A DNA stretch of 64,000 nucleotides from Isoetes taiwanensis (lineage: Eukaryota > Streptophyta > Lycopodiopsida > Isoetales > Isoetaceae). Below, one piece after another: positions 12,301-40,295 of this stretch. The notes below the pieces were generated by a model. That model was not told where the DNA came from. It was given only the letters and a program-made list of their open reading frames with translations, and made no database searches. Within the stretch, counting starts at the first letter, position 1. Each line of letters starts with the position of its first letter. Location of the stretch: assembly GCA_021234155.1 (NCBI GenBank), contig JAJEKV010000020.1:21126018-21190017 (forward strand). Reading direction: 5' to 3'. The position numbers and the translations under genes were made by a program.

Positions 12301-12732
12301 CCTGCATCCTATATAATAGTAGTTACACAAAGCCTTGGTACTAGAACAACGTTCGAGCAACAAGGCAATTTTGGGCACATCAATGAAGCCATTTGTTTTG
12401 AAACAGGAAACAATACAGTTAACATACCGCTAGCTGGATCGTATGCGCGTGACAACCGAAGTTTTTTGGTGAGGTTTTTTGAGCTTGCTTACAGATAGGT
12501 CCTGGAGATAGAATATCTGCGATTGTCTAAGAGATCTAGTGCCATTATCTTTCTAGGCCATCTTAACAGAAATTTTCAGGCAATAATTACCATGACAAAA
12601 CACAACGGGTTTTCTATCGCTTGGTATCAAAACATAAAAGCCTGTGGCACACACAGAATGCAAGATTGGAGCTTCGTCTGTCTTGTCTGTCTTCCCAGTT
12701 AGCCAGTTCAAGCATCCCTGACCCACAACGCA
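9353..12732. other. Intergenic, no gene supported
   Basis: Several short frames exist but none has a recognisable family or convincing exon borders. A frame at 9487-9669 (minus) ends LLLSKKNKEN, which could be a diverged upstream GAD exon (usual LLxKKNKETGW), but the rest does not match. Sequence at 11480-11620 has short repeats (GTCAATATAACC twice; GAGAGTATTGGAGAAAG). Confidence 0.4.
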
Positions 12733-12864
12733 GGTGACCGAGAATTTACAGGGAAGAATAGATTTGTAGCAGTCACCAGCATATCCTAGGGATATTCTAG
12801 CATATACCTAGGATATGCCAATTACCCACATAAACAAGGGTTTGCCCCCCTAGGGGCAACCCAA
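12733..12864 (+). repeat. Left copy of a hairpin-rich inverted repeat
   Basis: This sequence recurs in inverted orientation at 40008-40138. From 'agcagtcaccagc' to 'ggggcaacccaa' the two copies are almost identical; the outer 35 bp are more diverged. Each copy contains two self-complementary hairpins: GCATATCCTAGG with CCTAGGATATGC, and GGGTTTGCCCC with GGGGCAACCC. It lies about 1.2 kb upstream of the recombinase start codon. Confidence 0.85.
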
Positions 12865-13030
12865 AAATGGGTAAAAACAGTTGGTTTTTTTTGGATGTTT
12901 AGTTGAGGCACCGAGAAGATAGTCTGACATTGAAGTGCTAGGTAATCGGCCGGATCGAGGGGTTTTCGGCCGGTAAACTGGCAGGTGGCACCGTCGCGAG
13001 CGGTTGGGGTTTCCGGCCGGCTACCCAGTG

Positions 13031-13055
13031 TGAACCGCCACTTCAGCAAAATTTC
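13031..13055 (+). repeat. Left 25-bp inverted repeat of the recombinase element
   Basis: TGAACCGCCACTTCAG followed by CAAAATTTC is the inverse of 16651-16675 with three mismatches in 25 bases. Confidence 0.8.
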
Positions 13056-13299
13056 GTTGACGTGGCGGACGTTTAATTTTTTTTCCTCTGTTATCTTCTT
13101 CCCCCTTTTTTCCTCTGCGGCAATGGAGGGCGTCGGAAGTTTTGGCGATGGTGCTGCATGTAATTTTGAGGCGCTGCATGTGTTTTGTTGAGGCGCTGCA
13201 GGAAATTTTAGGTTTGTGTAGCTATGGTGTATGGCAGGGGTTGATTTTGTCACTTTTTGTCGATTTTTGGCGACGTTTTTGAAGTTTACTGTCGATTTT

Positions 13300-13851
13300 G
13301 TGAGGTTCTTGGCGACTTTGGACGCTTTAGCTGATGCATTTATGATTTCTTGTCGACTTTGGAGCTCTGAAGTTGCTCAGTTAGAAGTTTTTGCTCAGTT
13401 ACAAGTTTTTGCTCAGTTACAAGTTCTTGACGACTTTGAAGGTTCTTGCTGGCTTAGGAGGTCTGAGCTTGCTGGATTTATGACATCTGAGGTGTTGCAT
13501 TTACTAGTTTTTTAAGATTTTGGAAGTTTTTCGCGAGTTTGGAGTTCAGAGCTGTTGCAAGTACAAGTTCAGACTTGTTGTTGAGCTTCTTGGCAACTTT
13601 GAAGGCCTTAGCTGCTGCATTTACGACTTCTTGTCGAGTTTGCAGATCTGAACTTGCTGTTTGCTGAGTTCCGAGATTTTGCGGAGGATTTTCGAGATTC
13701 TTGACGACTTTGGAGGTTGTTGCCGAGTTAGAAGGTCTGAGGTTGCTACATTTATGAGATTTGAGCTCCTGCATTTACCATTTTTTGAAAATTTCTTAAG
13801 TGCTGGACGAGTTTGGAGTTCGGAGGTACTGCATGTACAAGTTCAGACTTG
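13300..13851. repeat. Tandem duplication, about 274 bp, in the recombinase leader
   Basis: The block with 'gcatttatgatttcttgtcg', 'gcgagtttggagttcagagc' and 'acaagttcagacttg' recurs about 272-276 bp later (second set at about 13608, 13810 and 13837). The end 'gtacaagttcagacttg' appears at about 13560 and 13838. Confidence 0.75.
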
Positions 13852-14047
13852 ATTTTGAGGGATTTACAAAAGGTAAGTTCAATGTCTTTAAAGTTTATGG
13901 TTCAATGTCTTTCATTTACTCATATATTTTATTTTCTTGCAGGTTTTACCAGCTCGAAGTTTAATCATCAATAGGTATGCATTGCTGTTGCATGCAGTGA
14001 ATCTAGCCTTGTAAAGCTATAAACTAACTTTTAATGTTTTGTTGCAG

Positions 14048-16260
14048 ATTTGTTGGAAAATTTTAAGAATGGCAGAATCAAGGTTCATGCTGCTACTTCT
14101 TTGTTCTTTCCTTGTAATTCAGGTTACTGATTCTTGTGTGAGTATCAGTCCTTCATTCTCTTTAGGAGATGAGTTACTCTTGGATGATACTACACTTGAA
14201 GGTGAAACTATCTGTGCTGATCACTTAATTGAGACGACAAATCCTGCAGCTGTAGAAAGTTTCATAAAAGGTTGAACATTTGCCATGGTTTAATGAAGTT
14301 TTTATTGAAAAACCAGATTCAAGTAAGGGTAAGTCCAAAGAGTTTGCTGATTTGGATGAACAAATGTTAGATGAAGTAGACAAGGGTGGGAAGGATAGAT
14401 CAAGCAAACAGAATAACTGGGCAAGGAGGAAATTTGATGCTTGGCAAAAATTTGTCAAGGGTGACAGTCAAGTTCCACAGATTGAACTATCAATTCCACT
14501 TGAGGATATACCTCACGTTGAGTTGAATGAGATGCTAGTGGGATTTCTACTGCAGGTCAAAAAAAAAGATGGTACAATGTTTCCTGCTGGCAGGTATTGT
14601 TTATACCCTTTTATCTAGTTTTTTTTTTGTCTTTATTTAACTGTTTGTTATTGCAGTTTAAATTGCTTGCTAAAGGCAGTAGGTAGGATTGTGCGCAAGA
14701 GACAGAAAGCAAAGATGTCGGTGACTGGGGTAAGAGTAGAAGGGTTTAATATTCTAAGGGATCCGTTGTTTGTCAGATCTAGGCTGGCATTCGTGACAGT
14801 CGCTGACATTTCCAGAAAGGCTGGTATCGGGGCAAAACGTAAGAAGGCGCAAGCGATTCCGTATAATTGTGAAAAAGAGCAGACCTGGATTATAAGATTG
14901 AGACTCCTCGAGGTGTTCAGAGACGTTTGTGCTTTTACCTGTATTCTAGATTTGCCATTAGGGGAGCTGGTGAGTTATACGAAGTCAAGGATGTTGACTT
15001 GATGCTTGAATCTGATGGTAAATCAGAGTATGTGATGTATAACGAGAGAACTAGCAAAACATGGGGAACATCTGTGACAAGGTACGATCCAAGCCACTTT
15101 AGACCTGCTATTTGGAGCTTCGATGAAGACTTTCTGCTTACATATAAGCAGTACATTCGACATCTTCCTCCTAAGGAGAATGCTGCACCAAGGGCATTAT
15201 TCTTGCAGCTAATTTCCAACTATAAACCTGGGGTAAGTTTAATTTTATTGCTTTTGAGTTTTATTTGTTTGTTTAATTTTTTGTTTTTATTGTTTCAGTC
15301 TTGGTACAGTAAAGGTAGAGTTGGCGAGAAGGGTATTTCTAAGTGGATTAAAGAAATGGGTGCATTCCTTAACGTTGATATCTGCAATAAGAGTGGTCGC
15401 GTTTCTACTGTTACACGTATCTCGATGGCTGGGGTTCCTCCATAAATTGGAAAGCTAATTACAGAGCATAGGAACACAGAGTCGTACGAAAAGTATGTGA
15501 ATGTCTTTCTTTGTTTGTTTATTTATTTTATTTACTAAATTTTGTGTGTTTACTGTTGCAGGTATGATCGAAGCAAGGATATTCAAATCAATGCTGCTAT
15601 GAGTGTGAATAGCAAGCCGTACAATGATGACGACAGTTTGAGGTTATATTCAGACGTGGTTACTGAGATGATAAAAATGAAGGAAAACTCAATGCTTGGT
15701 TCACATTCGCTAAGTGCTTGGTTTCTCCAGATACTCCTGCTCTAGACGTTCTTGCTACAGGTAACTTTAGTATAGTTTTTCTTTTATGTGAAATTATTGA
15801 AGATGTTAGGTTGTTGTAGGTCATGTTGGTTCTTCCACTGATCATGGATTGACTGCAAGTAACCTGTCAAATGATCCTATGCCTAGTGATCATGTGCCTA
15901 ATGGTGTTGCTATTGAAGATAGGGATATGGTTCAGGCTGCCAAAGTTGAAAACACTCTCGAATATAAAGGTTTGATTGATTATGAGATGTTTGATAATTT
16001 TCTCAAGTCAAATAAATATCTCGAGAAGTACTTCCCTCCGAGTATTGATGTTAAAAATATTGGTAAGTTTTTTCTTTATTGTTTATTGTTAAATTTTCAA
16101 ATCTTGTTGCTTATTTCAGATTATTGCAATTGCAGGTGGCCAATCTTTTATTGGTGCTACCTTCAATAACTACACTTTTCTTCAGGTTCCTGATTCAAAG
16201 TTCCTTACTTCGACAAGGGAAAACAATTTCAAGTCTGCCAAACTGATACCGTGTCTATTT
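14048..16260 (+). pseudogene. DUF3504/Crypton-like tyrosine recombinase, multi-exon, inactivated
   Basis: Tyrosine recombinases of this class cut and rejoin DNA through a catalytic Tyr. I infer leader introns 13873-13940 and 13974-14047, a start ATG at 14069, and exons 14048-14593, 14657-15232, 15299-15492, 15562-15760, 15820-16062 and 16136 to about 16260, all with GT-AG borders. An N-terminal SAM-like part (KFDAWQKFVKGD, LNEMLVGFLLQVKKKDGT, FPAGS) precedes the catalytic part: RFAIRGAGELYEVKDVDLML (first Arg), YNERTSK, KPGSWYSKGRVGEKGISKWI, then NKSGRVSTVTR (second Arg), TEHRNTESYEKYDRS (His/Arg and Tyr). A C-terminal extension of roughly 170 residues follows. Breaks: one-base shifts near 14273, 14875 and 15680, and TAA in place of a sense codon near 15443. 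The order WYS...GR...HR...Y matches Crypton and vertebrate KIAA1958/ZMYM-type domains. Confidence 0.82.
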
Positions 16261-16382
16261 CAGAAACTATGTTTCTTAAATTTCCAAACATGTTTTAGGG
16301 TTGCCTTGAAACTATTGAAACTATGCAAGTGTTTTTACACTGCAAACAATTTTTCCAGGCATTGCAATGTCTGTAATTTTGG

Positions 16383-16515
16383 TATCCAATGAATCCAGTA
16401 ATTTTGTAATCCAGTGAATCCAGTGAATTTTGTATCCAGTGAATCCAGTGAATTTTGTATCCAGTGAATCCAGTGATTTTTGTATCCAGTAATTTTGTAT
16501 TCAGTGAATAGTTAA
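16383..16515. repeat. Short tandem array, unit about 27 bp
   Basis: 'ATCCAGTGAATCCAGTGA' plus 'ATTTTGT' repeats about four times with small changes, just 3' of the recombinase gene and inside its inverted repeats. Confidence 0.85.
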
Positions 16516-16650
16516 ATAGTAAACAGTAAATTTGTCTAGGTAAACAGTTAATAGTATGATGAGGAATTTTAATGGCGGTGCTCTAAGCGGCGCCACCAAC
16601 AAGCTAGAAACCCAAAAATTACCTAAAGTAAACAAATACCAGAAAATCCA

Positions 16651-16675
16651 GGAATTTTGATGAAGTGGCGGTTTA
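16651..16675 (-). repeat. Right 25-bp inverted repeat of the recombinase element
   Basis: The reverse complement, TAAACCGCCACTTCAT then CAAAATTCC, matches the left repeat at 13031-13055. Confidence 0.8.
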
Positions 16676-16700
16676 CGGTTTATTGATTGTCAATCTACTG

Positions 16701-18590: not shown

Positions 18591-20165
18591 AAGTTTGAAC
18601 CCATGACCAAATATACATTTATTTTGGATTACTAGGCCTATATCAACTCACCACACATCATTGGACAAAACTTTTGCCTTATATGTGCACTTTGTAGGCA
18701 GGATTTAATCCCGCCTTAGGAAGTCTAGGTCCTAGAGGCAACTCTAGGGGCATGGCTTTTTAGCCTCACCATCCTAGTGCCACCTATCATGGTCTCGTTG
18801 ATTTTTTATTACTTTGTTTAAGGTCCATACTAGACTAATCTTGTACAGACTAGTTAGCTTATCCCACTGCCTTGCAGCAGCAGCCAAGTGCCACCTAGTA
18901 TGGTCTCGTTGTTTTTTTAATACTTTGTTTAAGGTCCATACTAGACTAATGGTCTCGTTGATTTTTTATTACTTTGTTTAAGATCCATACTAGACTAATC
19001 TTGTACAGACTAGTTAGCTTATCCCACTGCCTTGCAGCAGCCAAAGTGGAGGACACGTATAGGCTTTTTAAGTTCTACCATGTCAGAGATCATCATCATA
19101 TACCCCTACTAACCAACTTAAAGTTCTACCATGTCAGAGATCATCATCATATACCCCTACTAACCAACTTAAAGATAAGAGACATTGGCAAAGTTTGAAC
19201 CCATGTTCAAGTAAAAACTTATTTTGGCATTACTAAGCCTATACCAACTCACCACACATCCGTTGAACAAAACTTTTGCCTTACATGCACACTTTGTAGG
19301 CAGGATATAATCCCACCTTAGGAAGTCTAGGTCCCAGGGGCAAATCTAGGGGCATTGCTTTTTAAGCCTCACCATCCTAGTGCCACCTATCACGGTCCTG
19401 TTGTTTTTTTTATTACTTTGTTTAAGGTCCATACTAGACTAATCTTGTACAGACTAGTTAGCTTATCCCACTGCCTTGCAGCAGCCAAAGTGGAGGACAC
19501 ATATAGGCTTTTAAGTTCTACCACGTCAGAGATCATCATCATATACCCCTAGTAACCAACTCCAAAGATAAGAGACATTGGCAAGGTTTAAACCCATGAC
19601 CAAATGAAAACTTATTTTGGCATTACTAGGCCTATACCAACTCACCACACATCCATTAAGCGAAACTTTTGCCTTACATGCACACTTTGTAGGCAGGATA
19701 TAATCCCACCTTAGGAAGTCTAGGTCCTAGGGCAACTTTAGGGGCATTGCTTTTTAAGCCTCACCATCCTAGTGACACCTACCATGGTCCCGTTGTTTTT
19801 TTATTACTTTGTGTCCATACTAGACTAGTCTTGTACAGACTAGTTAGCTTATCCCACTGTCTTGCAGCAGCCAAAGTGGAGGACACGTATAGGCTTTTAA
19901 GGTATACCATGTCGGGATCATCATTGTATACCCCTAGTAACCAACTCCCAAAGATAAGAGACATTGGTAAGGTTTGAACCCATGACCAAATGAAAATTTA
20001 TTTTGGCATTACTAGACCTATACCAACTCACGACACATCCGTTGGGCAAAACTTTTGCCCTACATGTATACTTTGTAGGCAGGATATAATCCCACCTTAG
20101 GAAGTCTAGGTTCCAGGGGCAACTCTAGGGGCAGTGTTTTTTTAAGCCTCACCATCCTAGTGCCT
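18590..20165. repeat. Satellite-like tandem array, period about 390 bp
   Basis: The landmark 'aaagataagagacattgg' occurs at about 19174, 19565 and 19952, a period of 387-392 bp. Each unit has 'tttgaacccatgacca', 'cactttgtaggcaggat', 'ttaggaagtctaggt', 'ccatactagac' and 'gccaaagtggaggacac'. The first unit (18590-19170) is rearranged with internal duplications. GGTTTGAACCCATGACC resembles a polymerase III B box, but no A box or tRNA fold was identified. Confidence 0.88.
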
Positions 20166-39735: not shown

Positions 39736-40007
39736 GTATTCTGAAATAGGGTTCAACTCTTCACAAATTCTAAAATAGACATACAATGTACTTTTTGCAC
39801 TCACCTCTCCATGATATCTCTATGCAAAATGGAATATAGTCTCTGCAATTAATTTCGAAGGTGCTGGCGCTGACGACTAAAGCTGTGAGACTGGAATACA
39901 GAAGTAAGGGTGCCAAAATTTCTTTTTAAAGTTCGCCTCTGAAGCCTTCTCTTCTTCTATGTAAAATGGGTATATTTCGGAGTAGGTTTTAGTTTTCTTT
40001 TTTCTTA

Positions 40008-40138
40008 TTGGGTTGCCCCTAGGGGGCAAACCCTTGTTTATGTGGGCTTTTGGCATATCCTAGGTATATGCTAGAATATCCCTAGGATATGCTGGTGACT
40101 GCTCCAAACTTATCATTGCCAGTAAGCTCTCGGTCACT
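40008..40138 (-). repeat. Right copy of the hairpin-rich inverted repeat
   Basis: Reverse complement of 12733-12864, including both hairpins. It lies about 200 bp upstream of the inferred start codon of the ParB-like gene. Confidence 0.85.
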
Positions 40139-40295
40139 TCTGTTGATGGGCAGCCGCTCGCGAAACCGGCTAACCGGAGAGGTCCTTCGAGACTGCAGGA
40201 CGATGGTCCGCAGTGCCTTTCAGCTTCTTGGTTCAATCCACAAACAAGAATAGCAAAAAGGATGCTCCGGAAGGGAGCTAAATGAGAGATTTGAA

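Follow-up and report, generated by a model that had tools for sequence, protein, structure and literature searches.

A Crypton-like tyrosine recombinase gene within a multicopy transposon of Isoetes taiwanensis

Cryptons (CryptonF, CryptonS, CryptonA and CryptonI) have been reported from animals, fungi, oomycetes and a diatom, and the green lineage enters the sections of the survey consulted only as an abbreviation for Chlamydomonas in a tree legend and through a mitochondrial DUF3504 protein of an alga (Kojima & Jurka 2011, PMC3212892). The usual tyrosine recombinase site, as described there, has a 6-8 bp spacer between two inverted arms of 11-13 bp (PMC3212892). A review of plant genomes calls Cryptons relatively rare in eukaryotes, and its passage on them names no land-plant family (PMC11630846). 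The word Crypton does not occur in the main text of the genome paper for Isoetes taiwanensis (PMC8566536), and no land-plant Crypton in print was found in the open-access literature, as distinct from Repbase.

The DUF3504 domain is also carried by the host genes QRICH1, ZMYM2/3/4, KIAA1958 and KCTD1, which are described in parts of the Crypton survey as having lost most catalytic residues (PMC3212892). The Isoetes element has the same domain, and QRICH1 is the best Foldseek match of a model of a Riccia relative, but the element is mobile and keeps these residues in one copy, L036. In plants, the ALOG proteins are described as derived from a tyrosine recombinase element (PMC3537659, in part).

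DIRS and Ngaro elements resemble the Isoetes element in having a tyrosine recombinase and an inverted end-junction copy inside the element. In DIRS this inverted copy of the end junction is known as the internal complementary region. The window copy of the Isoetes element differs from both in that it lacks a reverse transcriptase and keeps coding introns. Helitrons have TC...CTRR ends, insert at A^T and encode a Rep/helicase, none of which is found here (the protein being sought in the ORFs of the window copy). The terminal inverted repeats and target duplications of DDE cut-and-paste elements (MULE, hAT, CACTA, mariner) are likewise absent, the duplication at the one decisive empty site.

Here we describe the Isoetes element and its relationship to Cryptons. 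Like them, it has one recognisable gene, for a DUF3504-type recombinase, true ends without terminal inverted repeats, no target duplication at the site tested and a TATG-like junction (compared with parts of PMC3212892). It is unlike them in its land-plant host, six coding exons and high copy number, and unlike textbook Cryptons in a palindromic left end with the right end repeated beside it in inverted orientation. Terminal direct repeats of 4-6 bp are reported for many Cryptons, whereas in the Isoetes element a clear one is not general, and its box II is KSGR rather than the HxLR usual in Cryptons. It may be filed as an element that would work like a Crypton and is related to Cryptons by domain homology. 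A Crypton-like transposon is thus amplified in a vascular plant, and relatives occur in a liverwort and in a clubmoss; this suggests that such elements are either very old in plants or have passed between lineages. Its copy number, defined ends and one empty site make a Crypton-like transposition mechanism directly testable in a plant genome, and annotators gain both ends and a protein profile for finding such elements.

The recombinase gene and its relatives

The window, the whole 64,000-nucleotide stretch of I. taiwanensis DNA that was analysed, lies on a 21.4-Mb contig (C1019). It contains a transposon copy of 3,742 bp (12935..16676), delimited by alignment of its ends to other copies with unrelated flanks. 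All features of the copy given below are on the forward strand except one inverted repeat near the left end. The original prediction was of a Crypton-like (DUF3504) tyrosine recombinase gene in a plant genome. That identity is confirmed for the gene at 14.05-16.3 kb, on predicted protein homology traced through relatives, and the gene lies in a transposon of the plant host. To the prediction is to be added that the gene does not stand alone but belongs to one worn copy of a transposon present many times.

The 5' leader contains imperfect direct repeats (13301..13859) and two GT-AG introns drawn by eye (13873..13942 and 13975..14047); seven introns in all can be drawn, six or more having been noted before. 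The first coding exon (14048..14593) holds the start codon (14069) and the N-terminal part of the protein. The predicted N-terminus (14069-14140, MLLLLCSFLVIQ) is hydrophobic, which is odd for a nuclear recombinase, and the real start codon may differ. The next exon (14657..15232) encodes the core-binding part, the first catalytic arginine (Arg I) in FAIRGAGE (codon 14960-14962) and the lysine of the SK motif (15056-15058). The third (15299..15492) carries WYS from 15302, NKSGRVSTVTR with the KxxR at 15389-15400 (Lys 15389-15391, Arg 15398-15400), and EHR (His codon 15467-15469), and the fourth (15562..15760) opens with KYD and the nucleophile tyrosine (15563-15565). All motifs named in the prediction are there, in the order it gave, on exons with GT-AG borders. 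A C-terminal exon (15820..16062) and a last exon with a GATFNN(C/Y)TFLQV motif (16136..16300, its 3' limit approximate) follow; the C-terminal extension, previously noted as unmatched, has no match in Pfam and is common to the sister copies (GATFNNCTFLQV). Beyond the gene lie 25-bp tandem repeats in 3' non-coding sequence (16373..16509).

When joined, the exons at 14069-14593, 14657-15232, 15299-15492 and 15562-15760 are free of stops in two of the 14 aligned sister copies (L035 and L041), which fixes the splicing model. The acceptor position of the intron at 14594-14656 is spanned by YCSLNCLLKA in the window ORF and by YCSLQGLLRA in the proteins P0005 and P0008, which suggests that this intron position is common to the plant elements.

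The window copy is dead, which had been overlooked. Its frame is lost near 14268, between about 14870 and 14905, and near 15690, and an in-frame TAA (15443-15445, GVPP*IGK) interrupts the catalytic domain; the copy therefore cannot make protein as assembled. The assembly is nanopore-based and polished (PMC8566536, in part), and any indel of a single base could stem from the assembly; the TAA, however, is no such indel.

In Pfam, the window exons alone match neither DUF3504 (PF12012) at E <= 1 nor an integrase, and it is the relatives that reach the DUF3504 profile. The N-terminal part of the window protein has a sub-threshold match to THAP9_C (E 0.005, 16.9 bits, cut-off 24), and the core of L036 has weak matches to DUF3504 (E 0.064), THAP9_C (0.093) and QRICH1 (0.16). 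THAP9_C belongs to a DDE transposase, and these matches formally speak against a recombinase, though the one in L036 comes with DUF3504 and QRICH1 matches about as weak. Seven further ORFs of the window copy gave no other Pfam domain at E <= 0.01, which leaves the recombinase as the only transposition gene found there.

When the conceptual protein was searched against 5.8 billion proteins, the one match at E <= 0.01 was R1sor_010268 of the liverwort Riccia sorocarpa (E 2e-39, 31% identity). A profile search, in which the 8,000 best candidates were scored, gave eight proteins: five from Riccia, one from the clubmoss Diphasiastrum complanatum and two others. The clubmoss relative is partial, with 277 residues that stop before box II. 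A third search, aimed at animal or fungal Cryptons, gave P0004 and a new fragment, P0009, only, and none of the three returned a named Crypton protein. The Riccia members of the family are the hypothetical proteins R1sor_010268, _003432, _008025, _000615 and _009295; R1sor_003432 is auto-labelled DUF3504 in UniRef.

The chain to known recombinases is closed by these relatives. The Riccia protein P0001 matches PF12012 at 2.7e-5, under the curated cut-off, P0005 passes it (32.7 bits) and P0002 is weak (19.9), while the remaining five of the eight have no PF12012 match at E <= 0.1. A second, diverged family in the Isoetes genome (L001, L002) passes PF12012 (33.6 bits) and matches Phage_integrase (PF00589) at 6.3e-6, with 26.5 bits just below the cut-off of 27.1. 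In hhalign the window family aligns to it with 99.75% probability, in an alignment of 310 columns that keeps the catalytic residues in register. Homology of the window family to DUF3504 and Phage_integrase follows from P0001, P0005 and the L001/L002 family.

In an alignment of seven sequences (A4), K243, K332, R335, H358 and Y367 are invariant and R211 is kept in six, L041 deviating. The arginine, lysine, KxxR, histidine and tyrosine occur in order in L036 and in Riccia P0001-P0003, and in the window copy they are present in a broken frame. In L036 all catalytic residues are found over exons 2-4, and the first exon is not intact. Elsewhere Arg I (R211) has become K in L035 and G in L041, and R335 has become H in L039. 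The set R, K, KSGR, H and Y occurs in R1sor_010268, _003432 and _008025, and the other two Riccia proteins are incomplete in the catalytic part.

An AlphaFold model of P0002, built from an alignment of eight proteins, is poor (pLDDT 43, pTM 0.27). With this low-confidence Riccia model, the Foldseek top nine are QRICH1 (a DUF3504 protein of Crypton origin, E 0.0022), Cre seven times and topoisomerase I, none at E <= 0.001, a ranking used as support only. Sequence searches of the PDB gave no match for the window piece, and for P0001 two unrelated encapsidation or packaging proteins (E 0.12 and 0.29); a profile gave five matches, the best of them an integrase at E 0.036.

Copies, ends and insertion sites

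The genome searched is an assembly of 1,658,258,908 bases in 1,110 contigs. A protein search found at least 209 exon matches, the window's own included (best 102 of 2,755 candidates scored), and the last 117 bp of the element gave at least 41 matches (best 40 of 322 candidates scored). For the 19-nt left end, GTGCTAGGTAACCGGCCGG, there are 109 exact occurrences, and for its reversed control none. These left ends are spread over the assembly, many on multi-megabase scaffolds, which argues against contamination, as the prediction had done on other grounds. The recurrence of the same exons in many copies and the Riccia match (E 2e-39) place the motif order far above chance.

Exon 2 is long enough and stop-free in 12 of 30 loci; of their 66 pairs, the medians cover the 44 whose dS could be computed and exceeded 0.05. 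Median dN/dS is 0.37 at dS 0.05-0.2 (11 pairs), 0.20 at dS 0.2-0.5 (4 pairs), 0.11 at dS 0.5-1 (15 pairs) and 0.08 at dS 1-3 (14 pairs). This pattern is read as selection on the protein between lineages with decay after insertion.

The right end is reached at 16657-16681 in 17 of 20 fetched copies (conserved stretch 16568..16676, ...GGAATTTTGATGAAGTGGCGGTTTAC). On the left, alignments start at 12933-12935 in five copies with unrelated flanks, and motif scans located this end in further copies. The left end is GTGCTAGG(T/G)AACCG and the right end is GG(C/T)GGTTTAC or close to it. No terminal inverted repeat is present at the true ends, GTGCTAGG and GGTTTAC, and a subterminal inverted repeat exists. 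A 24-nt inverted repeat, corresponding on the left to the inverted copy at 13030..13055, was rejected as a terminal one because the homology of the copies runs 95 bp further, to 12935. As a terminal direct repeat there is a shared G or an imperfect TTAYG, perfect as TTACG in L052; a clear repeat of 4-6 bp is not general.

An imperfect palindrome, in a block of 48-109 bp across copies, lies beside the left end. In the window copy (12935..13029, GTGCTAGGTAATCGGCCGG...CCGGCCGGCTACCCAGT) it is decayed, with arms complementary at 14 of 18 positions. Of the 18 arm positions, 13-17 are complementary in eight of 11 copies and 9, 11 and 9 in L035, L047 and L048, respectively. The hairpin z is -3.2 to -8.6 in nine other copies and -1.0 in the window copy (-0.35 for a 119-nt version). 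Between subfamilies the arms differ (GGCCGG vs GCCACC) and are still complementary in L051 (13/18) and L052 (14/18); the symmetry is therefore kept. Loop segments occur in both orientations among the copies, but L041 holds both halves of a longer palindrome, so that the short forms are better read as deletions; a flip-flop of the palindrome loop was therefore rejected.

Directly after the palindrome comes an inverted copy of the right end (13030..13055 on the reverse strand in the window copy, where 23 of 26 positions agree with the right end in reverse complement). It matches at 22-26 of 26 ungapped positions in eight of 11 copies, and less well in L035 (18), L051 (15) and L048 (13, scored against a sister's right end). 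Shuffles reach 15-18 per copy at most, so the values of L051 and L048 are not above chance. An extra inverted right-end copy occurs in the 3' part of the gene, near the position of 15862 in the window, in L035, L036, L039, L041, L042 and L054, and is absent from the window copy.

The decisive empty site is that of L051, 250/250 identical across the junction, where CCTTAT^GGTACT is empty and CCTTAT|GTGCTAGG...GGTTTAC|GGTACT is filled. Apart from a one-base ambiguity (G), nothing was duplicated or lost, and so precise an insertion is what a tyrosine recombinase, but not a DDE transposase, should produce. In the search with the joined flanks of ten copies, 40 of 2,384 candidates were scored, and all lay on the L051 block and spanned its junction, with identity of up to 100%; L051 was therefore the only one of the ten effectively tested. 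In a second search with six other blocks (40 of 1,279 candidates scored), paralogues of L042 showed no duplication and cover just 11 bp of the 5' flank, the paralogue of L052 (85%) is ambiguous, with a 2-bp gap right beside the junction, and none of the scored candidates was an empty-site paralogue of L038, L040, L041 or L035.

Hand counts at the junctions indicate a target preference. The first 3' flanking base is G in 22 of 29 right ends (P 1.5e-10), and on the 5' side position -2 is A in 14 of 15 left ends (P 5e-7) and position -1 is T in 12 of 15 (P 9e-5), by binomial P with assumed base frequencies of 0.2 and 0.3. The exceptions to the 3' G are L050, L026, L028, L041, the L055 group, L053 and L062. 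The 3' count takes one end per independent copy and leaves aside L045 (a duplicate of L044), L035 (divergent end) and internal inverted copies; the 5' count leaves aside array spacers and a coding look-alike in L054.

A proposed circle mechanism and its rivals

The window copy is very likely a decayed member of an autonomous DNA transposon family whose sole recognisable protein is a spliced Crypton-type (DUF3504) recombinase and which would move through a circle. Homology of the recombinase, the order of its motifs, the number of copies and their constant ends speak for this directly, as do the one site without target duplication, the target preference and purifying selection. What is seen of the mechanism is its DNA anatomy, from which we infer catalysis by the recombinase, the circle and a role for the palindrome.

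The recombinase would bind a right-end arm (CGGTTTAC) and a left-end arm (GGTAACCG, the first arm of the palindrome), and the two ends would be joined through a covalent tyrosine-DNA intermediate, releasing the element in circular form. The junction of this circle is predicted to be ...CGGTTTAC-GTGCTA-GGTAACCG..., and in DNA ...CGGTTTACGTGCTAGGTAACCG... would be expected. By eye, the would-be junction of the sister copies (CGGTTTAC-GTGCTA-GGTAACCG) has 8-bp arms that match at 6 of 8 positions around a 6-bp spacer. The circle would then enter short AT^G targets, with no host bases duplicated. The palindrome at the left end and the adjoining inverted copy of the junction between right and left end, which formally resemble a second attachment site or a hairpin substrate, may serve as extra recombinase binding sites or as a folded substrate.

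The attC sites of integrons are folded single-stranded hairpin substrates. By analogy, the elements could be ancient land-plant tyrosine recombinase transposons, distinct from described Cryptons, in which one end, folded into a hairpin, is joined through a single strand to double-stranded AT^G targets and replication of the cell's DNA resolves and amplifies the insertion. Such a hairpin substrate would explain the strong left palindrome, the invariant left core, the lack of target duplication and the high copy number; we nevertheless consider this scheme unlikely.

That the gene is cargo, captured by an element that another class (DDE, MULE or Helitron) moved, is very unlikely. A composite of this kind, MarCry of Fusarium, is described in part of the Crypton survey (PMC3212892), and both the 24-nt inverted repeat and the weak THAP9_C match (E 0.005, below cut-off) would fit it. 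Against capture by a DDE element stand the true ends without terminal inverted repeats and the 250/250 empty site without target duplication, and against a Helitron the ends, which are not TC...CTRR, and the targets, which are not A^T. The window copy has no second protein, and the recombinase itself is under purifying selection.

An origin in a tyrosine recombinase retrotransposon of the DIRS type, its reverse transcriptase since lost, would make the inverted end-junction copy a remnant of the internal complementary region, which the left block, holding the reverse complement of the right-end/left-end junction, formally resembles. We regard this origin as highly improbable. The seven ORFs of the window copy hold no reverse transcriptase, the relatives of the recombinase match DUF3504, and sister copies have their introns at matching positions, apart from pieces lost in L039 and L046, which speaks against an RNA intermediate. 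A domesticated host gene like QRICH1 or ZMYM, a pseudogene in the window, would account for coding introns and purifying selection and has precedents among animal DUF3504 genes (PMC3212892, in part), but it is already contradicted by more than 100 dispersed left ends, fixed ends and the empty site, and by the complete catalytic set in L036 and the Riccia proteins, most of which domesticated genes lack in that account, and is practically untenable.

Further copies and repeats

Left and right ends occur on the same strand 1,324 bp apart at C1007:12506585-12507908, 1,454 bp apart at C1055:10898477-10899930 and 1,302 bp apart at C367:41261-42562. These pairs are probably non-autonomous, internally deleted elements. 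Tandem copies at C956:1396162-1399532 and C1031:9762552-9765106 (L055, L057, L064 and L067) have the same 102-107 bp spacer and the same outer flank. They were rejected as circle products because spacer and outer flank are shared; the shared outer flank indicates one tandem event that was later duplicated.

The second DUF3504 family (L003 on C606, L004 on C31, L001 and L002) has introns, the box II KTLRHYAVTR and TGHKR...NYD. L003 contains two copies in inverted orientation with 89% identity.

A repeat with a 40-bp palindrome (GCATATCCTAGG...CCTAGGATATGC) occurs in four places near or inside elements, at 12722-12867 and 40005-40150 of the window, in L043 and in the 3' flank of L061, with 88-92% identity. 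A tandem array with a 386-bp unit occupies 19127-20162 of the window, with 2.7 copies and 90% matches.
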